From positions 7,192,544-7,256,543 of the forward strand of contig JAVGWX010000004.1 in the NCBI GenBank assembly GCA_036924085.1: DNA of 64,000 nucleotides. Reading direction: 5' to 3'. The stretch is from Ariolimax columbianus. Lineage: Eukaryota; Mollusca; Gastropoda; Stylommatophora; Arionidae. The first letter of the stretch is position 1. Every line of letters begins with the position of its first letter. Positions 1 to 58,664 of the stretch are shown here, piece after piece. The notes under the pieces were generated by a model, which worked only from the letters and a program-made list of their open reading frames with translations, was not told where the DNA came from and did no database searches. A program made the translations under genes and the position numbers.

Positions 1-370
1 TCCTCTTTTAGTTGGCTGCCTTTTAGCTTATTCAGCTCGCATATCTCGAGAGTGTTGTGTGTGTCATTGTGTTGCAGTCTTCTCCTCTCATGTTGAAGAT
101 GTAGAGGGTCTTCGCTAATCCGAATGCCTTCTGCTGCTTTGGGTCATTGTACCACAGTGTGTTAGTGTTACCGCGCTGTTTCAGGTGACATGTAGGAGAC
201 CCCTTGCACCTCCAATCCTCTTGTCGGATTTTCACTGACAGCATAGCAGCATCTATTATCATTGGAATCTGGAATCGTCTTGTGTGTGGTATGGATTCCA
301 TGTTTGCGGTTGCCCTTATAGATATGTGGTCGCTGTTTATATCGAATATAACCAAGTTTAACGGTCACAG
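1..370 (-). other. Unidentified minus-strand reading frames flanking the 18S-LINE insertion
   Basis: Two overlapping minus-strand frames of about 65 and 107 codons cover this flank. One reads down from about 374 to 168. The other runs 355-32 and contains cysteine-bearing stretches such as DWRCKGSPTCHLKQ. Across the insertion at 371-6790, the right flank (6791-6830) carries on the minus strand a pyrimidine-rich acceptor-like tract ending in cag. It leads in frame into the TSD and on into the 65-codon frame. So the insertion may have split a minus-strand exon or an older element's ORF. I do not recognise the protein. The cysteine pattern is loosely like a FLYWCH/transposase zinc finger, but that is a guess. 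Confidence 0.25.
360..370. repeat. Left target-site duplication of the 18S-LINE unit
   Basis: The 11-mer aacggtcacag lies here and again at 6791-6801. The 18S-like sequence begins at the next base (371). The right copy directly follows the (GAA)n tail. The first two bases of the right copy could belong to the tail, so the duplication is 9-11 bp. Confidence 0.85.
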
Positions 371-1224
371 GCATCTTTTAAATGTCTGCCCTATCAAATG
401 TCGATGGTACGTGACATGCCTACCATGTTTGTAACGGGTAACGGGGAATCAGGGTTCGATTCCGGAGAGGGAGCATGTGAAACGGCTACCACATCCAAGG
501 AAGGCAGCAGGCGCGCAACTTACCCACTCCCGGCACGGGGAGGTAGTGACGAAAAATAACAATACGGGACTCTTTCGAGGCCCCGTAATTGGAATGAGTA
601 CACTTTAAACCCTTTAACGAGGATCTATTGGAGGGCAAGTCTGGTGCCAGCAGCCGCGGTAATTCCAGCTCCAATAGCGTATATTAAAGTTGTTGCAGTT
701 AAAAAGCTCGTAGTTGGATCTCAGGCGCAGGCGGGCGGTCCGGCTCGCGCCAGTTCACTGCCCGTTGTCTCCTGCCCTACCGTCTGCCGGTTCTCTCCCA
801 CGGGTGCTCTTCGCTGAGCGTCCTGGGTGGCCGGCGCGTTTACTTTGAAAAAATTAGAGTGTTCAAAGCAGGCCTCGGCTGCCTGAATAATGGTGCATGG
901 AATAATGGAATAGGACCTCGGTTCTATTTTGTTGGTTTTCGGAACTGGAGGTAATGATTAACAGGGACAAACGGGGGCATTCGTATTGCGGCGTTAGAGG
1001 TGAAATTCTTGGATCGCCGCAAGACGAGCTACTGCGAAAGCATTTGTCAAGAATGTTTTCATTAATCAAGAACGAAAGTCAGAGGCGCGAAGACGATCAG
1101 ATACCGTCGTAGTTCTGACCATAAACGATGCCGACTAGCGATCCGCAGGAGTTGCTTCGATGACTCTGCGGGCAGCTTCCGGGAAACCAAAGTGTTTGGG
1201 TTCCGGGGGAAGTATGGTTGCAAA

Positions 1225-1273
<49 letters not shown>

Positions 1274-1300
1274 GCGGCTTAATTTGACTCAACACGGCCA
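371..1300 (+). rRNA. 18S rRNA internal fragment (retro-inserted pseudogene)
   Basis: Sense-strand 18S small-subunit rRNA without its 5' third or 3' third. Recognised landmarks are the stretch leading to gtctgccctatcaa, the gaatcagggttcgattccgg block, the universal gccagcagccgcggtaa (about 645), gtatattaaagttg, the GC-rich V4 loop (720-840), ttactttgaaaaaattagag, the gaggtgaaattcttgga block, gaaagtcagaggcgcgaaga, gccgactagcgatccgcagg and gaattgacggaagggcacc (1240). Homology stops at about 1300, just after gactcaacacgg. The V4 loop and the ctagcgatccgcagg block look molluscan. It is not a working rRNA gene: it is truncated at both ends, lies inside a TSD-bounded insertion and is joined to a LINE. 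Confidence 0.9.
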
Positions 1301-1990
1301 ACACTGAAATGATTGACATGCCGAGACCACTCTTCTGGAGTCTAATATGGAACTGGTGCTGGACTTAGACCCCCAGAAATCTGGGGTTATGTCCCCTGTG
1401 GCTCGGTTTTGTCTGCATCCAGTGTTTGATAAAGGAATTGACGGAAGAGCACTATCAGGAGTGGAGCCTGAGACCTAAGTTAACTTACCACGCCAATACT
1501 GCATAATGACTATCAAAAAGTACACCTTAGTGGGGTCTAATAGAGAACATGTGCTGGAATTAGACCCTCGAAAATCTTTGGGGCTACCCTTTAAGAAACT
1601 TGATTATCTCGCTAAGGGAATTGACGGAAGGGCACCACCAGGTGTGGAACCTGCGGCTTAATTTGACTGAACACGCCAATACTGTAGAACAACTGACAAA
1701 TTGAGAGCACTGCCGTTTGGGTCTAATAATGAACGTACGCTGGTATTAGACTCACGGACGACAAGTCAGCTCAAATGAAAGAACGCTACGGAAATCGTGT
1801 TTAACTCCGCAGATTTCAAATACCTGGTCATTGACAAACAAAAGCCCTCAATAAATTCGTCTGACCAAATAGTGAACGGGTGCTGGAAATAGATCTGAAG
1901 ACAGGTCAGTTTTACCCTACAAATGACAGGGCGTTGCTACGGAAAACCAGCTCAAATCGAGAGGAGCCGCAGACACTTTGGTTCACGTAC
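1238..1990 (+). repeat. Tandem 183-196-bp monomers with an 18S-derived core (LINE 5' region)
   Basis: The motif ggaattgacggaag starts at 1238, 1434 and 1617, giving spacings of 196 and 183 bp. Each copy continues through a gtggagcctgcggctt-like stretch, an aacacgccaatactg-like stretch and a block of the form tctaat..gaac..gctgg.attaga. A fourth, degraded unit keeps only the last block (gaacgggtgctggaaatag, about 1873) and the gctacgg/cagctcaaat stretch. The first unit is nearly 18S, the third close to it and the second most diverged. Units 1 and 3 also keep traces of the downstream 18S attgacagattgagag region. The layout resembles promoter monomers of some LINE 5' UTRs; function here is inference. 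Confidence 0.75.
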
Positions 1991-2851
1991 CAGGCTGATA
2001 AGCCAAGGGCGCGAGGCTACCATGTGGGGGATTACGGCCGAACCCTTGAAAGCCGCAATCCCGCCCAAAATCTCAGCACCACTGCAATGGGAGGCTCCTA
2101 CATGCTCGGGACCTGGGGCTTGCGCCCCAGCCCTATCAGGTAGAGCCACAGTAAGAGGTCCTTGCCGCCCGCAAATCAAAGCGGGCGGAAAACTGCTTGA
2201 TACTCACCCTATACGGCGATGGGGTGCGAAAAACACCAACCAAAGACTTAGAACCTGGTTGGGGTGTCGAAAACAGTAGAGCAGCCACCACACTGTGAAC
2301 TGTCAAGACTCAACCACTGACCATGAGAGTTGTCCGCACACCAGGCGATCAACATCTCTGTGACATTACCAGGCTTGTCCTCTGGCTAAATGCACTCCGG
2401 TTACGATATCTACCTCTGTACGTTATCAGCCATAACTATCATGCTGGACGCAGAAGAGATGCAGACCAGCGGACATTGCACACCTGCCCCACTGTGTCAA
2501 CACCCCAGGTGGCGGGGAATGCTAGGCGTACCATCCCTGCACAGAAGCCAATAAAATAAAGGGAAAAAGAGATACCCCACTCACATGCAAATGCTACGTT
2601 TCTGGCAGGACGTGACGATCCTGGGATACAGACACACTGGACTGCCTCTTTTCCGGGTAAACCAGTCCATCTCATATATCACATACCATCATTGCACCCT
2701 ATAGACACGAGTAGTGAAAACTCGATAGTCTGGTAAGACATCTTCCATAGGAGAGAAAACTCTGATCGTAAACAACTGCTGCCTTGCTGATAGGCTGGGG
2801 ACAGCCAAAGGCTAAGGAGGGCATCCCTACAGAAACGCCTGTTGAAATCGG
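1990..2851 (+). other. Putative LINE 5' untranslated region
   Basis: About 860 bp of moderately GC-rich sequence between the monomers and the long LINE frame. It contains short plus-strand frames (1880-2143, 1923-2279, 2323-2559). None shows a CCHC zinc knuckle or any recognisable ORF1/gag feature. Complementary segments are visible (ccgcccgcaaatcaaagcgggcgg near 2164-2190 can fold as a hairpin). I treat it as 5' UTR, possibly with a lost ORF1. Confidence 0.45.
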
Positions 2852-5800
2852 ATGCACGGGGCCGCAAGCCTAACAAAACAGTGCAACGTAAATCACAGTA
2901 TGATGGCAGCACAACCTATTCGAAAAACGTATGGCGCTCATCCTGAGGAGACCCGCCAGGCAGCGATAGCGCCGGGCCCCACGCCTCGAAGGGGCCCACC
3001 CTTGACTACTGGTGGTCACCCACCCATGTGTCGTGGAGTTAAGGCACATGGCTATGGGGAAACGACTATTGGCCAAAACCTCAAGACCCTCAAAATATTA
3101 CAGTGGAATGCGGAGGGAGTCATTAACAAAAAACTTTCCCTAACACATCACCTGCATGAAGGTAAGATTGACGTGGCATGTATCCAGGAAACGCACCTCA
3201 ACAATAACCATAAATTCTCAATCAGAGGATACCAGACTTTCCGTCTAGATAGAGAAGGCCACAAAGGAGGGGTCCTGATACTGACCAGAAACAGCATACC
3301 GAGTAGCGCGGTACCTGTAAATCACACCGGACAAGCAGAAATTGTAGGAGTTGACATAATGGCTCAAGAGACGAAGCTCCGCATTTTCAATCTGTACGGA
3401 CCACCAAACAGAGACCTATCGCTCTCGAGTATGGAGGTCAGAGACTCCAACTGCATAGTGGTTGGAGATTTCAACAGCCACTCGGAGAGATGGGGATACT
3501 CTGACACAGACAGCAGAGGTGACGAAGTGGAAGATTGGGAGATATATGCAAATCTCTCCCTAATCAATAGGCCGGAGGATAGCCCTAGCTTCTATTCAAG
3601 AACATGGCATACCACCTCGACTCCAGATTTGGCCTTCTCCACACAGGACATACACTATAAAATAGACCGCCAGGTGCTAAACCAACTGGCAGGTAGCGAC
3701 CACAGGCCGATCAGGCTAACCATTGACATGGAAGTAGGCCCACAGGAAACAAAACCGCTCCCACGTTGGAATTACAAACGAGCCGACTGGGACAGATTTG
3801 CAATCCTGACAGATGGGCTGTGTGAAACCATCAACACACGAAACACCAAAATGAAGCCTATGGTAGAGAGCCTAAGCAAGGCAATAATGCAAGCCGCCAC
3901 TGAAACCATCCCAAGAGGAGCTAGGAAAAACTATAAGCCCTACTGGAATGATGAGTTACAGAAAGTGGAAGATGCAGTAACAAATGCTAGGAACATGGCA
4001 GAACGAGAAAAATCCGTGGAGGCAAACATCGCCCTCAAAGCCGCCGCGGCGAAGTACAAACACACTCTCAAGCAAACAGCAAGAGAAAGTTGGAAAAATA
4101 AAACGGAAAGTTTAAACCTGGACAAAGAAGGGAACAAGCTATGGAAGCTAGTCAGAGCCATGAACGACGAAACCCCGTCAAATAATTAAATTACTATCAA
4201 GCAAGGCGAGAACTTGATCACAGGTAAGAAAGCCGCAAACGCCTTTGTCGATCACTATGCCAGAGCAAACCACATCGAGGTCCCTGCAGATAAGCATACA
4301 GACATTAGCGAAGAGCTAAAGGGGCACGAAAACATAAATTCGGCTCCTGAAGAGCACATGATGGCCAAACTAACAATGCGCGAAATGGAAGAGGCTATGA
4401 GAACACTAAAGAGAAGGAAATCTCCCGGAAAAGACGGGATAACAAACGAAATGCTGATGGGGTTGGGCCAAACAGCGAAGAAAAAACTACTATCAGTCCT
4501 GAACCAAAGCTGGAAAAGGGGTATTGTACCCCAGGCATGGAAAGATGCAATACTGGTACCAGTACCAAAAACAGGAAAGGACAAAACAGATCCGAATGGA
4601 TACAGGCCCATAAGCCTACTGAGCTGTGTCGGCAAGCTGATGGAACGGATGATAAACACCAGACTGATGTGGCATCTGGAAGAAAAACGAATACTAATTC
4701 CACAGCAAGCCGGCTTTAGACAGCACAGATCCACTGAGGACCAGGTCATCCTCATAGCCCAGGAGATAGAAGATGCCTACCAGGCACAGAAACACACAGT
4801 AGCTGTTTGGGTGGATCTGGAAAAGGCATTTGACAAAGTCTGGAAGGATGGACTTAGAGTCAAGCTAAGAAGAAGTGATGTTTGTGGGAAGATGTACAAG
4901 TGGATCAACCACTACCTCAAACAAAGAACGGCCAGAGTCCAAGTACAAGGGCAGATGAGCAAAAAGGTGACACTCGAGCAGGGAGTACCCCAAGGGGGAG
5001 TACTGTCACCCACACTCTTCCTGGTATATATAAACGATATTACAGAGAATATACCAAGAAGAGTCCATAGCTCAATGTTTGCAGACGATCTGGCTATGTG
5101 GACCTCTGAAAAGAATCTCACCATAGCAAGAAATCGGATGCAAACGGCCCTAACATCGCTGGAAGAGTGGGCGAACTAATGGCTGGTCAAAATAAACGAG
5201 GAGAAAACCACGTGCACAATATTCTCGCTCTCATTAAAACCCCAAAGTACCAAATTAAGCCTAAATGGCAAAATCCTGCAGCCAAACGACAACCCAACCT
5301 ATCTGGGAGTCACATTTGATCGGCGCATGACATGGAAAAGTCAGATTGAGAGAAACCGAATGAAAGCCAGAGAAAGAATGGCGATCATGAGGAAACTTGC
5401 TGGCACAAGCTGGGGAGCAGACGAAGGCATACTAAAGAAACTGTACACTGGAAGAGTGAGACCAGTTCTCGAGTATGGCATCGCGGCATGGACAACAGCA
5501 GCGAAGGCGAACTTCGATAAAGTTAACAAACTTCAAAACCAAGCCATGAGAATCATAACAGGTGGCATGAAGTCAACGCCAATTGTAGAACTTGAAAAGA
5601 TTACAAAACTGCAATCCATGACCGACAGAAGAGACTGCAGAGCCCAGCTGCAGTCAGAGAAACTCCGAAGACTGACGGACCATCCAATGTACCAGAGGCT
5701 AAACAATTTAGGAACTGGGAAACTAAAGCGGAGAAACTTTGCAGAAATAGCCTAAGCAAAGATGCACGAAGATCCCATAAACGCACTAACAACACCAAAA

Positions 5801-6760
5801 CCCATCACTACTGTACGAAAACCTACTTGGAGGCAGGATATATTTCCAGAGGTGGTAGAAAATATACCAGGTATTGCAAACAAAAACTGCCAGACCGAAA
5901 AAGAAAGGAGAGACACTACCCTAAGCTTCATAACGAAAAGCTACCCAAGCATGGACTGGACCCATGCATACACCGACGGTTCTGTAACAAACACTACACA
6001 GAACGGAGGGGCTGGAGCATTACTGAACCTACCAAATGGCAGAAAAATAACACTGTCATTCGCTACTGGTAAGTACACAAGCAATTTCAGAGCGGAGGCA
6101 GAGGCACTGAGGGCGGCAGTGGAAGAAATGGCAACACACAGTGAAAATGAGAGCCACATAGTCTTGCTGACAGATGCTCTCGCCGTAGTCACAGCGCTAA
6201 AAAGCCAGAAAAACACTGAGCTTAATGACTTAAGAGCAGCACTCTGCAAACTATGCCAGCTGTCCGCACCAAAAAGGGTAGTGGTACAGTGGGTTCCGTC
6301 ACACTGCAACATCCAAGGCAACGAGGAGGCAGACAGACTGGCAAAAGAAGGTGCAAGGCTACCACAAACAGATACCAGTATGACGTACGAAGAGTCAAAA
6401 CGGCTTATCAAAGCCAGGTACATTACCAAATGGGAAACCGAACATACTGGTTACACCAAAAACGATGCCTATTACCAGTTGAACCGAAGAGAGCAGGTCG
6501 TTGTCTTCAGACTTCGCACTGGCCACAATAGACTGAGGTACCACCTATTCAACAAATTGAAGATAGGGTGTACCGACGAATGCCCGTGCGGTACTGGTAA
6601 AATGACCACTGAACATCTGCTGCAGAACTGCCCGACATACGGGGATCAGAGAGAGCAGATGTGGCCATTGCCAGTGGAACTGCAAGACAAGCTTTATGGT
6701 AGTGGCGAGAGTCTCAGGATGACCGCCGCTTTTTTCGAAAAAATAATGGTTACTGTCTGA
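2852..6760 (+). pseudogene. LINE ORF2: endonuclease-reverse transcriptase-RNase H (I group, Nimb-like), three in-frame stops
   Basis: One reading frame of 1302 codons encodes a non-LTR retrotransposon polyprotein. Domains in order: an APE-type endonuclease (LQWNAEG at residues 83-89, then IQETHL, VVGDFNSH and SDHRPI); a reverse transcriptase (YRPISLLSCVGKLMER, QAGFRQHRSTEDQ, VDLEKAFDKVW, GVPQGGVLSPTLF, FADD at 743-746, YLGVTFDRRMTW); an RNase H with its acidic set (YTDGS about 1039, RAEAEALRAA, LLTDALAV, GNEEADRLAK); and a C-terminal CPCGTGKMTTEHLLQNCP zinc-binding segment. There is no frameshift. TAA stops lie at 4187-4189 (endonuclease/RT linker), 5177-5179 (after the RT palm) and 5753-5755 (before RNase H). 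ATG at 2852 is the first in frame. The family call rests on domain order and the (GAA)n tail; other RNase H-bearing I-group clades are possible. Confidence 0.9.
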
Positions 6761-6790
6761 CTGTGTACGCAGAAGAAGAAGAAGAAGAAG
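6761..6790 (+). other. LINE 3' end with (GAA)n tail
   Basis: A very short 3' UTR (ctgtgtacgcag) after the TGA stop leads into a GAA-repeat tail that directly abuts the right TSD. The same ending occurs at 58626-58650. At 22916-23019 the tail is expanded to about 100 bp. The tail is therefore a family feature. Confidence 0.85.
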
Positions 6791-6801
6791 AACGGTCACA
6801 G
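6791..6801. repeat. Right target-site duplication of the 18S-LINE unit
   Basis: Exact copy of the 11-mer at 360-370, directly after the GAA tail. Confidence 0.85.
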
Positions 6802-20418: not shown

Positions 20419-21893
20419 ACAATAAAAATTAGCAACCCAACTGCTTCTAATTTAGGCACTAGACCACAACGATACAGTGCAGAACAAGCTAGAGCTGTTT
20501 TTAAAAGCTTTTTAGTTAGTGATTCTGAACATGACGATTCAGAGGATAGCGATCACAGTGAAAGTAATAATAGGCCTAGTGTTAATATATCAAAACGGTA
20601 TGTCTTAGGGTCAGTTGGTAGTTGCTTCCAATCAGGGACTATATGTGTTCCTGATTCATCAAGCAGCAGCGATGGGACTGATTTAGAGGATGTAACAAGT
20701 ACGTGTAGAGTTGATGGAGATGGCGATAATGGAATTTATGCGATGAGAAAGACACATTCCACACCACATAGGACTACTAGGACTGACAATGAAGGGTGGC
20801 GTGATGCCTTAGATGTAAAGGCCATTGGAGCATCTCACTTCGGACAAATACATTATGGCAGCAGACTAAATCCGGCTGAAATATGCTCACCTCTTCAAAG
20901 CTTTCTATCCTTGCTGAAAGAATTAATTCTTGACAAACGTATAACAAATGTCAATGCGTATCTCCAGCAGAAATTTGAATACACCAGCACGATAATATTC
21001 AACGTTCAGCAAATGGACACCACTTGATGAGAATGTTTTTTCTTTTACAGTTTTTGGCCGTCCTGATTGAAATGGGGTTGAACGCAAAGCACTCAATAAA
21101 ATATGTTTGGTCCACCAAATCACACAGCAGTAGTCCCTGGTTTTTGGTTTTCAATTTTCAGAAGAACAACATTTGTATTGATTTATCAATGAATTCTACG
21201 TGCAGCTGTACCAGATGATCCAGTGAAATGCAAGATTGAGCCGTTTGTAAATGGACTCGTTGCCAGTTTCCAAGAAGCCTTCTCCCCATTTGACAACATA
21301 TGTATCGATGAGATGATCTTAGGTCACAAGGGGCAATATAAGTGCAAACAGTACAATCCTAGCAGTCCCAAAAAATACCACAGCAAATCCTTCGAACTCT
21401 GCAACTCCATCACCGGATATATTTTAAATCTCTTCGTGTATTTCTTAGCTGATACAGCTTACAAAACTAGAACGGACCAACATTATTTCCATGTTGTTAA
21501 AGTTTTTGACAGACTGCTGGAAGGCATCACATGACATCACCATCTGTTTGCTGACAGGTACTACTATTTCCAGCTTTTTGTTCAGTTTTTGCGACAGAGA
21601 AAACACCTCTACACTGGGACTCTGAATGTAAACATAAAAGGTTTTCTTTCAGAAATAAAGGACAAGAAGATATCCCTGAATCAAGCAAAGTGGTTTATCA
21701 ACGATGATGAAAAGGTTATGTGTGGTAGCTGGAAAGTTAAGAAATCTGTGTAGCCTTGCCAGATTGTGACAACATGTGGAAGTGCCAACAATGAACAAAG
21801 AATTGAGAGTAGGAGTCAAATTATGAAACGATCACCCATTCACAGATGCAACCTTTCAATGAATGGATGTGACAGAGAGAACCAGTTGATATC

Positions 21894-21905
21894 ATATCAT
21901 GGAAA
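21894..21905. repeat. Left TSD of the LINE copy in piggyBac
   Basis: The 12-mer atatcatggaaa is repeated exactly at 23020-23031, right after the GAA tail. Confidence 0.85.
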
Positions 21906-23019
21906 TAATAGCCAAAGCAAAGATGCACGAAAATCCCATGAACGCCAAAGCCCATCACTACTGTACGAAAACGTACCTGGAGGCAGCATATATTTCCAGA
22001 GGTGGTAGAAAATATACCAGGTATTGTAAACACAAACTACCAGTCTGAAAAAGACAGAAGATATACTACCCTGAGTTACATAACGGAAAACTACCCAAGC
22101 ATGGACTGGACACATGCATACACCGACGGTTCCGTAACAAATACAACACAGAACGAAGGGGCAGTAGCATTTCTGAGCCTACCAAATGACAGAAAAATAA
22201 CACTGTCATTAGCTACTGGAAAATACACAAGTAATTTCAGAGCGGAGGCAGAGGCACCGAGGGCGGCAGTGGAAGAAATGGTAACCGGTAAAAAGGAATA
22301 AAAGCCACATAGTCCTGCTTATAGATGATTCAGCCGTATTCAAAGCACTAAAAAGCCAGAAAAATACTGAACTTAATGATTTAGGAGTAGTACTATGTCA
22401 ACGATGCCAGCATTCCGCACCAAAAAGGGTAGTTGGTCAGTGGGTTCCATATCAATGCAACATCCAAGGCAACGTGGAGGCAGACAGACTGGCAAAAGAA
22501 GGTGCAAAACTACCCCAACCTGATACTAGTATGACATACGAAGAGTTAAAACGGCTTATTAGAGCTAGATACATGACCAAATGGGAAACTGAACATACTG
22601 GCTACACCAAAAACGATGCCTATTACCAGTTGAACAAAAGAGAGCAGGTCATGGACTTCGGACTTCGCACTGGCCACACTAGACTGATGTATTACCTATT
22701 CAACACATTGAAGATAGGTGGCTCCGACGAATGTCCGTGTGGTACTGGGAAAATGACCGCTGAGCATTTGCTGCAAAACTGCCCGACATACGAAGATCAG
22801 AGAGAGTAGATGTGGCCATCACCAGTGGCAACACTAGACAAGCTGTATGGCAGATTCGACAACCTCAGGATGACCGCTGCCTTTTTCGAAAAAAATAATG
22901 GTTACTGTGTGACTGCGTACGATGATGAAGAAGAAGAAGAAGAAGAAGAAGAAGAAGAAAAAGAAGAAGAAAAAGAAGAAGAAGAAGAAGAAGAGAAGAA
23001 GAAGAAGAAGAAGAAGAAG
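21906..23019 (+). mobile_element. 5'-truncated copy of the left-end LINE (RNase H end, copy C)
   Basis: The copy begins shortly before the RNase H domain (aagcaaagatgcacgaa, matching about 5753-5770). It carries YTDGSVTNTTQN (22117-22152), FRAEAEAPRAAVEEM, GNVEADRLAKEGAKL and CPCGTGKMTAEHLLQNCP, then a GAA-rich tail of about 100 bp (22922-23019). The third Asp region is altered (LIDDSAV) and stops are present (22299-22301, 22807-22809), so it is inactive. It is visibly more diverged from the 5.7-6.8-kb copy than the copy at 57.8 kb is. Its exact 12-bp TSD places the insertion within the piggyBac reading frame. Confidence 0.9.
22922..23019 (+). repeat. (GAA)n tail, expanded
   Basis: A GAA repeat with scattered AAA and GAG variants. 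It is the 3' tail of LINE copy C and is much longer than the roughly 20-bp tails of the other two tailed copies. It produces poly-Glu and poly-Lys chance frames. Confidence 0.9.
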
Positions 23020-23031
23020 ATATCATGGAAA
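23020..23031. repeat. Right TSD of the LINE copy in piggyBac
   Basis: Exact copy of 21894-21905. Confidence 0.85.
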
Positions 23032-32029: not shown

Positions 32030-32705
32030 CCCGTCCTTCTATGTGTCCCACAAGGTGACACAACAACTATTCAATACATCCTTATATGTGTCCCACAAGG
32101 TGAGAAAAGAACTATTCAACCCGTCTATATAGGTGTCCCACAAAGTGACACAACAACTTTTTAACCCGTCATCATATGTGTCCCACAAGGTGATACAACA
32201 ACTATTCAACGAGTCCTGCTATGTGTTCCACAAAGTGATACAACAACCATTAAACCCGTTATTCTTGTGTCCCACAAAGGGACACAACAACTGTTCAACC
32301 TGTCCTACGTGTCACACAAAGTGACACAACAACTATTCAACACGTTATTCTTGTGTCCCTCAAAGTGACACACCAACTATTTAACCCGTCCTTATATGTG
32401 TCACACAAAGTGACACAACAACTATTCAACCGTTCCTTCTATGTGTCCCACAAAGTAACACAACAACTATTCAACCGTTCCTTCTATGTGTCCCACAAAG
32501 TAACACAACAACTATTAAACCGTTCCTTCTATGTGTCCCACAAAGTAACACAACAACTATTCAACCGTTCCTTCTATGTGTCCCACAAAGTAACACAACA
32601 ACTATTCAACCGTTCCTTCTATGTGACCAACAAAGTAACACAACAACTATTCAACCGTTCCTTCTATGTGACCAACAAAGTGACACAATAATTATTCAAC
32701 CCGTC
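32030..32705. repeat. 45-bp minisatellite
   Basis: About 15 copies of ccttctatgtgtcccacaaa plus gtaacacaacaactattcaaccgtt. The central copies (32435, 32480, 32525, 32570, 32615) are almost identical and the outer ones diverge. The period is a multiple of three, so a YVSHKVTQQLFNRSF repeat reads open on the plus strand (32353-32691). There is no start context, splice site or other coding sign. Confidence 0.9.
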
Positions 32706-35315: not shown

Positions 35316-35980
35316 TTAATGTGAGCCATTTCAAAAATTCCGTTTGTATTACAGTGTTACTATTTGATTTTAAAAATTTGAAAATTGCATTTAGAAACAG
35401 GTTATTGCCATTTCTAGGCACTTTTTTGTAAAAAAAGGAGTTTAGCATTGTTCACAAAACAATCATGACATCTTTCTCCAAAGTATGTAAACAGAGATGT
35501 TTGATTGTGTTGACACTTTTTCAAGCTGTTCCAATATATTGAAATATTTAATGTATGTACCTTTTCAAAAAATTGTAAATATACGAAGTTAGCAAAAATA
35601 GTAATGGCGTACAAATCATACAACATCAGTGGTCAACAATATACCTACAAACTAGAATTGCGCAAATGCAATATCGTACACGATTTGAAAATTAAACTGA
35701 GAAAAATAGTAAAGGAATTGATTTCATGACATAATATGTGTTAAACTAAAATCAGTTAGTGTAACGGAAGAATGGACACAGAGACGCAATTAGAATTTCA
35801 CTCTACCAACGCTGGTGATAATGTATGGACGAAAGAAATAATGCTAAAACTAGCATGCCGTCGAAGAGTGGGGGGGGGGGGGGGGAATGTTTTTAAAAAA
35901 AATCAAATATGACCTTCACTCATGATGTAATATAGTTAGACTGAAGGAATACATGAGCAAGATATTCAAACTTCAAGAAA
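35316..35980. other. AT-rich stretch with poly-G run
   Basis: A run of about 16 Gs lies at 35870-35885. No gene is seen. Confidence 0.45.
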
Positions 35981-35989
35981 TGAAACCTT

Positions 35990-37918
35990 TTTGTGGACAG
36001 CCTAAGCAAAGCCATACTGCAATCAGCCACCGAGTCCATCTCAAGAGGGCAAGTAAAAATTACAAGCCATATTGGAATCGAGAACTGCAGAACGCTGAGG
36101 ATGAAGTCTCGAAACGATAGAAACACGGCAGAAAGAGAGAGCAATCTACTGAAGCCAATATCTCCCTCGAGGCCATCAATGCGAGACACAAAAGAACACT
36201 GAACAAAATAACAAGAGACAGTTGAAAAAAAAACAGAAAACCTCAATCTAGATAAAGAAGGGAACAAACTATGGAAATTAGTCAGAGCCATGAATGATGA
36301 AACGCCATCGAATAAATAAATTACCATCAAGCAGGAGGACAACATGCTTACTGGAAAAAAAAAACAGCAAACGCTTTTATAGAACAATATGCCAGAGAAA
36401 ACCACATTGATGTCTCTACATACATAAGTGAAGAACAAAAGAGCCACGACAATTTCAAGATGGCACCAGAGGAGCACATGATGGAAAAACTAACAATGAA
36501 TGAAATGCATGAGACCATTTCAACGTTAAAGAACAAGAAATCGATCGGAAAAGATGGGCTAACAAATGAAATACTGATGGAGCTGGGCCAAACAGCAATG
36601 AGGAAGTTACTGTCAGTCCTGAACCAAAGCCGGAAAATGGGAATTGTACCACCGGCATGGAAAGATGATGTACCTATACCCGTACCAAAAAAAGAAAAAG
36701 ATAGAAAATATCAAAATGGATACAGGCCTATATGTCTCGTGCGTTATGTTCGAGAGCATGATAAACACCAGACTGATGTGGCACCTGGAAGCAAAACACA
36801 TATTAATTCCACAGCAATCAGGATTTAGACAACACAGACCCACTGATGACCAGATCACTTTCATAGCTTAGGAAATAGAGGATGCTTACCAATAGAAACA
36901 TCATACAGTAGCGGTCTGTGTGGATTTAGAGAAGACATTTGACAAGGTGTGGAAAGAGAGACTTAAAGTCAAGCTACACAGATCTGGAAAAAATGTACAG
37001 ATGGACACCCCACTACCTCCAAAACAGAACAGCCAGAGTCCAAGTACAAGAGCAGATGAACAAAGAGGTAACAGTGGAGCAAGGAGTACTCTAAGGAGGA
37101 GTGCATTCACCCACATTTTAGTTGGTGTATATAAATAACATCAAAGAGAATATACCAAGAAGAGTCTACAGCCCCATGTTTGCAGACGATATGGGTATGT
37201 TGACCTCTGCAGAAAATCTCACCGTGGCACACAATCGAATGCAGCAGGCCCTATCATCGCTGGATGAATGGGCGAAAACATGGCTGGTCAAATAAATTTA
37301 AAAAAACAATATGTACGTTATTTTCCCTTTCAAATAAACCACAGAACACCAAAATAAGTCTTAATGGCATATATATGCGGCTAAACCACAACTCAAACTA
37401 CTTGGGAGTCACATTTGATCGGCGCATGCCATGGAAAAGTCAGATCAAGAGAAACCGAATGAGAGCAAGACAAAGAATGACAATCATAAGGAAACTTGCT
37501 GGCACCAGCTGGGAATCAGACGAAAAAATACTGAAAAAACTGTACACTGGAAGAGTGCGACCAGTTCTCGAGTATGACATTACGGCATGGGCAACCGCAG
37601 CAAAAGCGAACTTTGATACAATAAGGAAACTTCAAAACCAAGCCATGAAAGTTATAACAGGAGGCATGAAGTTAACGCCAATTGTAGAACTTTAAAATAT
37701 TACAAATCTGCAATCCATGACCGACAGAAGAGACTGCAGAGCCCAGTAGCAAGCAGAGAAACTCAGAAGACTGATAGACCATCCAATGCAACAGCGACTA
37801 AATAGATTTGGAAGTGGGAAACTAAAGCGGAGAAACTTGCCAAAAATAGACAAAGCCAAGATGAGCGCAGACCCTAAGAACACCAAAACAATACCAAAGC
37901 CCATCACTACCGTAGTTT
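35990..37918 (+). pseudogene. Third copy of the left-end LINE (endonuclease end to RT end, copy B)
   Basis: Alignable to 3860-5815 of the left-end LINE. It starts at gcctaagcaaagccatactg and ends abruptly at cccatcactaccgtag, just where the RNase H domain should begin, so it is truncated at both ends. It keeps GLTNEILMELGQTAMRKLLS, QSGFRQHRPTDDQ, a motif A variant (VDLEKTFDKVW) and a palm motif weakened to FADDMGM. It also keeps YLGVTFDRRMPWKSQI and VRPVLEYDITAWATAAKANF. Several frameshifts and stops are present (poly-A near 36355; 36871; 37093). It shares with the first copy a TAA at the same codon of the endonuclease/RT linker (36317-36319, SNK then stop then ITIKQ). No GAA tail or TSD. Confidence 0.88.
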
Positions 37919-38469: not shown

Positions 38470-41400
38470 GGTCAGGTCATCCCGTAACCGGTGAGGTCCT
38501 TCGGGCACACATGAAGACATCCTCACAACTCCACGCCATCCCTCTCTGTCAGATGCCGCTTATTGTGACTTTTTCTGGTCGGAGACTGGTCCATTCTTTT
38601 ATGTTGTCCTCCAATCTCTTTTTTGACCTGCCTCTTCGTCGCCTGCAATGCACCTTATCGTGGAGGACTGTGTTTGCAAGACCACTTGATATCGATATTT
38701 GACCGTACCAAGTGAGTTTCCTTCTTTTGACAGTTGTACATAGATCTTCGAAAAACCTTTTGCTGTAGTAATTCTATCTCGTATTTCCTCTTTTGTATCT
38801 CGATCTTTGCACGTGACATTTAAATATTTTCGGAAACATCTTATCTCCAAGGCCTGTTTCCTTCGTTAAAGGCCAGCTGTAACTGTCCATGTATCACACG
38901 CATAGAGAAATATTGACAGGACCAGTGTACGCATTAATCTGATGTTCGTGCTTAGTGCTAACCGTTTATCTTGCCAGATTTTGTTAAGCCGTGCAAGCGC
39001 CTCTTTTGTCTGTGCTATTCTGGCCAAAACTTCACATTTATATCCTTCATCACTGACAATCGGCCAAAGATATTGAAAACGGTCAAGCACTTCGAGTTCC
39101 TGACCGTTACCTTTTATTCTGCTGCTTAAACCCGTAGCGTTGTTGATCATTAATTTTGTCTTTCCAGCTTTTATCTCCATACCATAGTCAAGAGCTGTTT
39201 CATCGAGCATTCTGACCCATTCCTGGAGTTCTGCTTCTGAACCCACCAACCCGTCGAAGTCATCTGCAAAACGAAGGTTGATAATCGTTCGGCCCTCTAT
39301 CTTGACAGTACCAATGTGACCTCCAAGTGCCTCACTCATAATTCCTTCAAGGAATATATTGAAAAGAGTTGGAGAGAGTGTACATCCCTGTCTCACACCA
39401 ACTGATGTGCGAAACCAATCTCCTAGCCTCCCATTCACAAGAACTGCGCTAGACGCCTTGTTATACAGGTGTTCAATGACCGTTATAATATGTCAGTTGA
39501 TATTATACATTCTCATGGTTCCCACAGCGCTTTATGCCATACCATATAAAATCCACAAACACATGATACAGTGTTTGCTGCTGTTCTAAATATTTCTCGC
39601 TTTGCAGCCTTAAATTAAATATATGTTCTGTAGTGCATCTTCCCTGTCTGAACCCTGCGTGCTCCTCGGCAATACTGTTCTCTGCTTGGGGTTTCAATCG
39701 ATCGAGGATTAATCTAAGCATGACCATGCTAGGGTGGCTATTGATGCTTATTGTTCTGTAGTTTTGGCACTTCTTAAGGTTTACAGACTTATGTACGGGT
39801 AACTAATGCTTTCGTCCATAAGTCCGGCCAGTTTCCGGTAGCCCATATTTTGTTACAGATGTGTATCAGGCCTTCCACCGCTACATCTCTACCTGCTTGT
39901 AAGAGCTCTGCTGGTATATTGTCCACGCCGGCCGCCTTCCCTCTTCTCAATGTCTTTACCGCTGCAATTACCTCTTCCTTCGTTATCAGTTAGTTATCCT
40001 CTATATTTTTTGGTGTTGGGGGGAATGTTATCTCAGGTTTCTTTCGCCCTTCATAGTTATTTTGCTCGGAACAGTACTCTGTCCATCTTGCCAGTACGTC
40101 ATTTCCCTCAATGAGATACTTGCCGTTTTTATCATGGATCATAAGGTTCCTGCTTTGTCTTGGTGTTACTAGTTATTTGACAACCTTGTATGCTCCATCA
40201 GCATCATTTCTGTTTAGTCTATCTTCGATGTTTGCGCATTGCTCACATATACACGCTTATTTCGCCTCTCTCATCTTTTGTTGTATGGCTTTCTTGACCT
40301 CTTTATAACTGCCGACCTCCTCCGGTGGGTGATTGTGTTTTTGTCAGTGATCTTCTTTTATCACAAAGGTCTAACATTTCTTTGGTCACCCAAGGCTTCT
40401 TTTTTGTTTATTGACATCTCAGGATCTCTGTTGCAGTATCTATGAGAGCTGCGTTAAGAGACTATGTAACTGTATCTGTATCCAGTCCCTCTCTGCGAGC
40501 GAGCAGTGGCGCAATACTCCCTCCCACCCTTGCTTGGAAGACATCGGTGATTTTTGGGGTCCATTAGTTTGTCCAGGTTAAACTTTAGCCTGGTCAACTC
40601 CTTCTTTGCGACTCCCCTCAATCGCAGACGCATGGTCCTCATAACCAGATCGTGGTCGCTTCCTTCTTTGCGACTCCCCTCAATCGCAGACGCATGGTCA
40701 TCATAACCAGATCGTGGTCAACTCCTTCTTTGCGACTCCCTTCAATCGCAGACGCATGGTCATCATAACCAGATCGTGGTCGCTTCCTTCTTTGCGACTC
40801 CGTTCAATCGCAGACGCATGGTCATCATAACCAGATCGTGGTCACTTCCTGTGTCAGCTCCGGGGAAACTTCTTGTTTTGTCGGTGTTGATGCTCGATCG
40901 GAACTTCCTCTGGTCCAATATAAGGTCAATCTGGCTATGCACTTCATTGCTTCGGTTATGCCATGTCCAGCGTCCCGATGGCTTGTTTAACCCAAACGTC
41001 TTTGCCACCAACAGCTGGTTGCATCTTGCAAATTCTAGGAGTCTCAGGTCCCTGTCATTTGTTTCTTTATTTCCGTATGGGCCAGATGTTTCCCTCCAGT
41101 CGTGGACTGCATCTTCACTAATTTTTGCATTCCAATCACCCTGGACCACCAATATGTCTTTTTTTGGCGTTTCGTGTAATAGACTTTGAAATTGATCATA
41201 TACTGCGTCTATTTCACAATCTTCGTAGTCTGCAGTGGGTGCGAAGCACTGTATTATGGTAATATTAAACGGTGCTGCCTTTAGCTGTAAAATGATAAAA
41301 CGACTAGATATTGGGCGGCAACCCAATATGCATCTAGCTGTATCTTTATGCACCAGTATCTCCACTCGGTGTAATTGTGTGTCCTCCCTGCCACTGTAGT

Positions 41401-42010
41401 AGAGCGTGTGGCGCTCATCCGTGGTTAACTCTCCAAAGCTTTTCTTTATATCGAGCCTCGCATATACCAAGGATGTTCCACCAGTAGTTCTCCATCTCGT
41501 GCGTTAGCTCATTGATTTTGCCACATGGGTTCAGTGTTCTAACATTCCACATTCCTATTGTGAGCTTGTCTTTCCTCAGTTTAATGGTTCCACCAGTAGC
41601 ACACTTATCATCTCCGACCTGGTGTGGGACGGCAGGCGCGGTCATTGTTGACCCGGGCTGCGACCGAGCCGGTATGGTTGATTGTGGGTATGTCCTCATG
41701 TGTGAATCTTTGGCGATTTCTCTTGGCGGAGACCATCTCCTCTCCAAGCCGGTGCGGGCCAACATCTGCATCTGACCTGGCGGAGCCCATCTCTTTAGGC
41801 GAGCCATTGCCCCGTTTGGCTACAGCCTCGCAGCCATAGTTTCCCAGTGTGCACCACTTGGAGGTGACGTTGACTTGTGTGTTCGCTTTTTCGGCAGGCT
41901 ACTCATTTCACTTTTTGCCCCTCAGAAGAAGGACTAGCCGACCCCGACATCGCTGGTTTGCGATGCCGAGCGCAAAACACACCATTGCTAACATCTCACA
42001 CCCGTAATGC
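38470..42010 (-). pseudogene. RTE-type LINE, long decayed copy
   Basis: Minus strand, 5' end near 42.0 kb. The N-terminal region and endonuclease start are at 41807-41415 (KLTIGMWNVRTLNPCGK). The endonuclease body is at 41470-40763 (VVQGDWNAKISED, DLILDQRKFRSS, GSDHDLVMM). The RT follows: EEHAGFRQGRCTTEHIF (39660), then GVRQGCTLSPTLFNIFLE and LRFADDFDGLVGSEAE (39390-39230, palm Asp pair kept), and RLNKIWQDKRLALSTNIRL (38990). The C-terminal segment is MEIRCFRKYLNVTCKDRD (38850). This is the usual RTE layout: APE endonuclease plus RT, no RNase H. Frames are broken by stops, and a 62-bp minisatellite sits between endonuclease and RT. The 3' terminus (about 38474-38495 on the plus strand) matches that of the copy at 12.8-13.4 kb. 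Confidence 0.88.
40592..40839. repeat. 62-bp minisatellite inside the RTE element
   Basis: Four tandem 62-bp units start at 40592, 40654, 40716 and 40778. Units 1 and 3 begin ggtcaactcc; units 2 and 4 begin ggtcgcttcc. This alternating pattern suggests a 124-bp dimer was duplicated. The unit comes from the end of the endonuclease domain (the MTMRLRL codons, minus strand). Since 62 is not a multiple of three, each copy shifts the reading frame. Confidence 0.92.
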
Positions 42011-57831: not shown

Positions 57832-57845
57832 AGATCCTGTATTGT
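57832..57845. repeat. Left TSD of the fourth LINE copy
   Basis: agatcctgtattgt is repeated exactly at 58651-58664. The first two bases of the right copy could be part of the tail. Confidence 0.85.
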
Positions 57846-58650
57846 TCTGTAACAAACGCTACACAGAACGGAGGGGCAGGAGCATTCCTGAACCTACCAA
57901 ATGGCAGAAAAATAACACTGTCATTCGCTACTGGTAAGTACACAAGCAATTTCAGAGCGGAGGCAGAAGCACTGAGGGCGGCAGTGGAAGAAATGGCAAC
58001 ACACAGTGAAAACGAGAGCCACATAGTCTTGCTGACAGATGCTCTCGCCGTAGTCACAGCGCTAAAAAGCCAAAAAAACACTGAGCTTAATGACTTAAGA
58101 GCAGCACTCTGCAAACTGTGCCAGCTGTCCGCACCAAAAAGGGTAGTGGTACAGTGGGTTCTGTCACACTGCAACATCCAAGGCAACGAGGAGGCAGACA
58201 GACTGGCAAAAGAAGGTGCAAGGCTACCACAAACAGATACCAGTATGACGTACGAAGAGTCAAAACGGCTTATCAAAGCCAGGTACATGACCAAATGGGA
58301 AACCGAACATACTGGTTACACCAAAAACGATGCCTATTACCAGTTGAACCGAAGAGAGCAGGTCGTTGTCCTCAGACTTCGCACTGGCCACAATAGACTG
58401 AGGTACCACCTATTCAACAAATTGAAGATAGGGTGTACCGACGAATGCCCGTGCGGTACTGGTAAAATGACCACTGAACATCTGCTGCAGAACTGCCCGA
58501 CATACGGGGATCAGAGAGAGCAGATGTGGCCATTGCCAGTGGAACTGCAAGACAAGCTCTATGGTAGTGGCGAGAGTCTCAGGACGACCGCCGCTTTTTT
58601 CGAAAAAATAATGGTTACTGTCTGACTGTGTACGCAGAAGAAGAAGAAGA
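57846..58650 (+). mobile_element. 5'-truncated copy of the left-end LINE (RNase H end, copy D)
   Basis: It starts within the RNase H domain at [10 protein letters not shown], right after the YTDG motif of the full copy, and runs through LLTDALAVVTALKSQ, SHCNIQGNEEADRLAKEG and CPCGTGKMTTEHLLQNCP to TGA (58623-58625). The same 3' end and (GAA)n tail follow. I count about a dozen differences from the 5985-6790 copy in 800 bp, so about 98-98.5% identity, with no lesion in the retained frame. It has lost the first catalytic Asp by truncation and cannot act alone. Its 14-bp TSD and high identity show a recent insertion. Confidence 0.93.
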
Positions 58651-58664
58651 AGATCCTGTATTGT
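58651..58664. repeat. Right TSD of the fourth LINE copy
   Basis: Exact copy of 57832-57845. Confidence 0.85.

Follow-up and report, generated by a model that had tools for sequence, protein, structure and literature searches.

A segment of 18S rRNA in the genome of Ariolimax columbianus lies in sense orientation upstream of a LINE, which raises the question of whether the two were inserted together and how a LINE came to carry a ribosomal front end. The initial annotation of the 64,000-nucleotide stretch analysed here (the window) proposed that 18S, a set of monomers and the LINE were inserted in one target-primed event, either through a template switch from the LINE RNA to 18S rRNA or because the lineage natively carries 18S at its 5' end. 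The main copy is made up as follows.

360..370, + strand: left target-site duplication AACGGTCACAG, one of two occurrences in the window
371..1297, + strand: near-intact 18S rRNA head, from Rfam model position 292; takes in the 18S piece of monomer 1 (from 1234)
1298..1429, + strand: rest of monomer 1, with diverged 18S (gap of 16 model positions), 28S piece at 1338-1375, and spacer
1430..1612, + strand: monomer 2, with 18S piece from 1430 and 28S piece at 1533-1570
1613..1813, + strand: monomer 3, with 18S piece from 1613 and 28S piece at 1719-1756; right limit approximate
1862..2333, + strand: diverged 28S rRNA, 3' part reaching the end of the model (3401/3401; Rfam, 59 bits)
2334..2902, + strand: LINE 5' UTR, without recognised rRNA match (Rfam)
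2903..6760, + strand: single LINE ORF, interrupted by TAA at 4187, 5177 and 5753
3098..3715, + strand: endonuclease domain (Pfam PF03372, PF14529)
4574..5173, + strand: reverse transcriptase domain (Pfam PF00078)
5966..6355, + strand: RNase H domain (Pfam PF00075)
6771..6790, + strand: GAA-repeat tail, read from the sequence
6791..6801, + strand: right target-site duplication AACGGTCACAG, one of two occurrences in the window

One insertion from 18S rRNA to GAA tail

The Rfam SSU_rRNA_eukarya match begins at 371, immediately after the left copy of AACGGTCACAG, and the GAA tail runs to 6790, flush with the right copy, so that both outer boundaries fall where the initial annotation had placed them. 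The 11-mer occurs only twice in the 64 kb when both strands are searched, compared to a mean of 0.02 in 100 shuffles. Nine of its 11 bases, CGGTCACAG, form the unambiguous part of the duplication, as the leading AA on the right can be assigned to the GAA tail. The rRNA head and the LINE lie in the same orientation within this one duplication pair, as in other RNA/LINE chimeric insertions, and 371-6790 is a single sense-oriented insertion running from 18S to LINE.

Searching the 64-kb window by blastn found three other LINE copies:

57844..58653, + strand: young sister copy, 12/810 bases different, 5'-truncated, GAA-tailed, with a 12-bp duplication
21907..23021, + strand: copy with 85.6% match up to 22944 followed by a GAA-rich tail, 5'-truncated, with a 12-bp duplication
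35978..37914, + strand: older internal fragment of a LINE relative, 77%, without 3' end

All three end downstream of the rRNA head and none reaches it. The flanks of these copies and of the main copy contain no Rfam rRNA match, and the fixed rDNA site of rDNA-specific R-type elements is not seen here. Because the duplication is flush, the tail is present and sister copies exist, the proposal that 18S, monomers and LINE arrived in one target-primed event is supported. The mode of insertion is ordinary; it is the 5' part that is extraordinary.

The body is an endonuclease-type LINE, with endonuclease, reverse transcriptase and RNase H domains, a 3' tail, a target-site duplication and 5'-truncated copies. 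Three TAA codons in the ORF make the main copy dead; set against relatives' ORFs of equal length they are compatible with ordinary decay, the alternative being TAA read as an amino acid. A protein search scored 8,000 candidates and found 288 relatives, of which 120 were listed. The best full-length relatives among the matches listed have 67 and 66% identity to the LINE ORF, and those from named organisms belong to Littorina saxatilis and Batillaria attramentaria, which points to a gastropod as the probable host. By eye, another frame at 2840-2902 resembles the extended N-termini of two relatives (P0007 and P0009), as if this stretch of the 5' UTR were perhaps common to the LINE family.

Elements of the Ingi clade have a single ORF with endonuclease, reverse transcriptase and RNase H. 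The LINE here has one ORF downstream of the head, and a Pfam scan of three upstream frames recognised no ORF1; we take this architecture to be Ingi-type, as in molluscan Ingi-type LINEs. On domain architecture the element is a candidate Ingi, with nearest named proteins (among the matches listed) from Littorina and Batillaria. Ingi elements have been reported in gastropods, and the accessible text of that report mentions no rRNA head for them (PMC11203168).

Composition and relative ages of the ribosomal layers

The 18S match scored 844.6 bits over 371-1430, starting at model position 292, and with the flank included in the alignment, posterior values for bases 1-370 were low throughout the displayed blocks. 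The roughly 0.9 kb of 18S described initially is present at 371-1297, but the clean 18S stops at about 1297 (previously 1300) and the sequence is monomer-like from 1298. All monomers run from 18S to 28S, and the joint after 1297 follows monomers 2 and 3 in this order. The tandem units of the initial annotation are likewise present, but their composition is that of 18S-28S fusions, the 28S having been overlooked. Reading them as tandem repeats of an unrelated 5' UTR was rejected because they match 18S and 28S. The 28S piece recurs four times (at 1338, 1533, 1719 and 1862). Compared with the Rfam consensus over 36 positions, these pieces show 11, 8, 11 and 14 mismatches; in 300 dinucleotide shuffles of 1301-2340, the best-matching site never had fewer than 14 (mean 17.9). 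The fourth piece (14/36) stands at the edge of the shuffles when taken alone, yet it runs without a break into the long 28S match downstream.

That long match, at 1862-2333, was missing from the earlier feature list. It scored 59.5 bits (E 4.8e-13) with 1300-2900 as query and 59.1 bits (E 2.5e-11) with the whole window, and is collinear to the final model position, directly before the LINE 5' UTR (2333/2334). Matching is poor in the middle of the alignment, which is an expansion segment. The terminal stretch by itself is weak (16.8 bits, E 0.16); it was counted since both its family and its place in the order are as expected. Of 57 base pairs checked in the 28S part, 29 are unchanged, 15 changed but still paired and 13 broken, with two more involving a gap, a tally to be read knowing that rRNA varies between species anyway. 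When the 28S-derived frame 1899-2276 was used as a protein query, three candidates came back, none scoring. Beyond 371-2333 no rRNA was found in the window at Rfam thresholds.

Divergence separates these layers. Counted at the positions that Rfam capitalises as conserved, where some mismatches may be host rRNA differences, perhaps unequal for 28S and 18S, as the reference is Rfam, the 18S head shows 6/284 mismatches in two stretches (about 371-715 and 841-1077), a count that omits the variable region between them and 1078-1234. The 18S piece from 1235 has 0/54, giving 6/338 for the head (1.8%, 95% interval 0.7-3.8%). Mismatches are far more frequent in the 28S part (18/92, from 13/74 and 5/18; p = 9e-9 against the head) and in the 18S piece of monomer 2 (9/54; p = 2e-5 in the same comparison). 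Monomer 3, with 3/54 in its 18S piece, is not significantly different from the head (p = 0.11), and monomers 2 and 3 compared with each other in their 18S pieces give p = 0.12. Inside monomer 3, the 18S has 3/54 mismatches and the 28S 10/34 (p = 0.004).

The apparent age series is clear for the head, monomer 2 and the 28S part only. On this series, an old 28S head would have been gained first, 18S-28S units later, and the near-intact 18S segment last. It is plausible that this 18S was gained at or shortly before insertion, because the divergence of the head is close to the difference from the young sister copy (12/810). Capture of 18S in one step, a candidate we considered, is rejected by the 28S content and by the difference in divergence.

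Origin of the ribosomal head

Relatives of the element offer a view of its original length. Contigs carrying 119 of the 120 listed relatives have a median of 4,479 bases (quartiles 4,269 and 4,637), and 112 of the 119 are under 7 kb, although contigs give nothing certain on element ends. The LINE without rRNA (2334-6790) measures 4,457 bases and the whole insertion (371-6790) 6,420, and because the median contig nearly equals the former, the head looks added. If relatives' contigs tend to be whole elements, this is circumstantial evidence that the LINE body starts near 2334 and that the 28S end was added there.

A search of viral contigs for rRNA-headed relatives found nothing with two DNA patterns, and one alignment matched 18 stretches, none of them a relative. 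A search of genome contigs matched 237 stretches at 52 loci, of which a single locus covered much of the LINE ORF (residues 48-933 of 1285, 27% identity); no rRNA was found in it by Rfam. This LINE-like contig (1-4310) is filed in a Thiotrichales metagenome bin and is possibly a eukaryotic contaminant.

Our preferred reading, to which we give an even chance, is that a one-ORF, endonuclease-type LINE had its 5' end built stepwise from ribosomal RNA. The LINE reverse transcriptase would have switched templates several times, first end-to-end onto 28S and last into 18S within homology. The first switch would have led from the 5' end of the LINE RNA to the 3' end of 28S, which fits the joint at 2333/2334. 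A later switch may then have linked 18S to a position within 28S, with tandem repetition of this 18S-28S joint afterwards. In the third step, placed by divergence at insertion or shortly before, the enzyme working on the 18S-like part of monomer 1 would have crossed over to genuine 18S rRNA without a change of register, copied about 930 nt of it and stopped inside 18S. We favor switching within homology for this last joint because it is internal and the young 18S keeps the register of the old pieces as it enters monomer 1. Jumping from one template end to another without homology is reported for the reverse transcriptases of both endonuclease-type and R2-type LINEs (PMC6895275). Both the number of events and the switching itself are what we infer from the layers. 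Points that weigh against this reading are that none of the three other window copies shows any part of the head, that the terminal 28S stretch scores low by itself and that the expansion segment matches poorly. The single switch from LINE RNA to 18S proposed in the initial annotation fits the young 18S head but is insufficient for the 18S-28S monomers and the older 28S part.

Stepwise building could be carried further. We tentatively raise, as a doubtful extension, a LINE lineage that uses rRNA as a renewable 5' end: its transcript would start 18S-like, the reverse transcriptase would move by homology onto abundant 18S rRNA, and a decayed or short 5' end would be replaced repeatedly.

The second proposal of the initial annotation, a native ribosomal 5' end, accounts well for the old layers, the diverged monomers and 28S. 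Taken as a full explanation, the whole 18S-28S arrangement would be a long-standing 5' UTR of the family and the main copy a member with ordinary 5' truncation, with the 18S kept rRNA-like by selection or by conversion from rDNA. The monomers are older than the head and must be inherited, and the joint after 1297 repeats the order of monomers 2 and 3, both as this explanation expects. It is at odds with the much lower divergence of the 18S head relative to the element's 28S part and with contigs of the listed relatives about as long as the LINE without a head, and we consider it unlikely.

Quite improbable, in our view, is a 5' transduction, in which a copy resident in an 18S gene or near rDNA was transcribed together with upstream 18S and the RNA retrotransposed. 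The 18S is in sense orientation and contiguous with the element, and LINEs inserted in 18S genes are known, as with R8 (PMC5035012). However, the joint between 18S and monomer recurs within the monomers and so does not derive from one insertion into 18S, and at Rfam thresholds the rRNA of the window is confined to 371-2333, the displayed flanks of the copies not being rDNA.

In a ligation model, 18S or 28S fragments would have been attached to the LINE RNA ahead of reverse transcription. Ligation is among the two mechanisms named for U6/LINE-1 chimeras (PMC13174262) and would predict end-to-end joints such as that between the 28S end and the LINE 5' UTR. It does not predict the young 18S joint, which lies inside 18S and keeps the register of the 18S-like sequence already there, and its probability is lower again. 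An assembly join of rDNA and LINE is highly improbable given outer ends flush with a duplication unique in the 64 kb, diverged monomers within the joint and a window without any N.

Comparison with known systems and other elements in the window

Mammalian chimeras of 28S rRNA and LINE-1 have been described at 18 loci, 83% of them in sense orientation, with 28S segments of 50-482 nt (median 269; PMC13174262). Like these and the U6/LINE-1 chimeras of the same study, the insertion here places an abundant RNA 5' of a LINE, mostly sense in the mammalian cases, in what appears to be one event with target-site duplications. It differs in that the 28S there is at most 482 nt, whereas here about 0.93 kb of 18S is joined to tandem 18S-28S units and a 28S 3' part of different ages, and in that the element is not LINE-1. 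The main text of PMC13174262 makes no mention of 18S. SINEs with a 28S or 5S rRNA head (PMC13174262) are alike in having an rRNA-derived 5' part moved by LINE machinery, but they are short and non-coding, whereas this head belongs to a LINE that has an ORF of its own. R2 elements with a 28S-derived 3' UTR (PMC5035012) are also a LINE lineage with rRNA in an untranslated part; in R2 this is the 3' UTR of an rDNA-specific element, and here it is the 5' side of an element found outside rDNA in every copy within the window.

Neither an 18S-headed LINE nor a stepwise rRNA head appeared among the literature matches listed, Repbase and most subscription papers being outside the scope of that search. 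This agrees with the earlier remark that no example with 0.9 kb of 18S had been described, yet the shorter 28S/LINE-1 chimeras are published (PMC13174262).

Fusion with other RNAs has been speculated to swap LINE-1 5' UTRs (Law and Burns, PMC13174262). LINE 5' UTRs change abruptly between subfamilies, and the layered rRNA divergence makes the fusion idea directly testable in one host genome. The locus would also document, in nature, repeated departures of a LINE reverse transcriptase from its own RNA to rRNA, and suggests that such LINEs may renew their 5' end through repeated copying of ribosomal RNA.

Other elements were seen in the window by eye. The broken frames at 20419-21900 have the look of a piggyBac-type transposase, and the LINE copy at 21907 follows directly. 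On the minus strand, 38866-39492 and 40763-41503 contain frames like the reverse transcriptase and endonuclease of a different LINE. At 32254-32691 lies a frame of short tandem peptide repeats, VSHKVTQQLFNRSFY-like.
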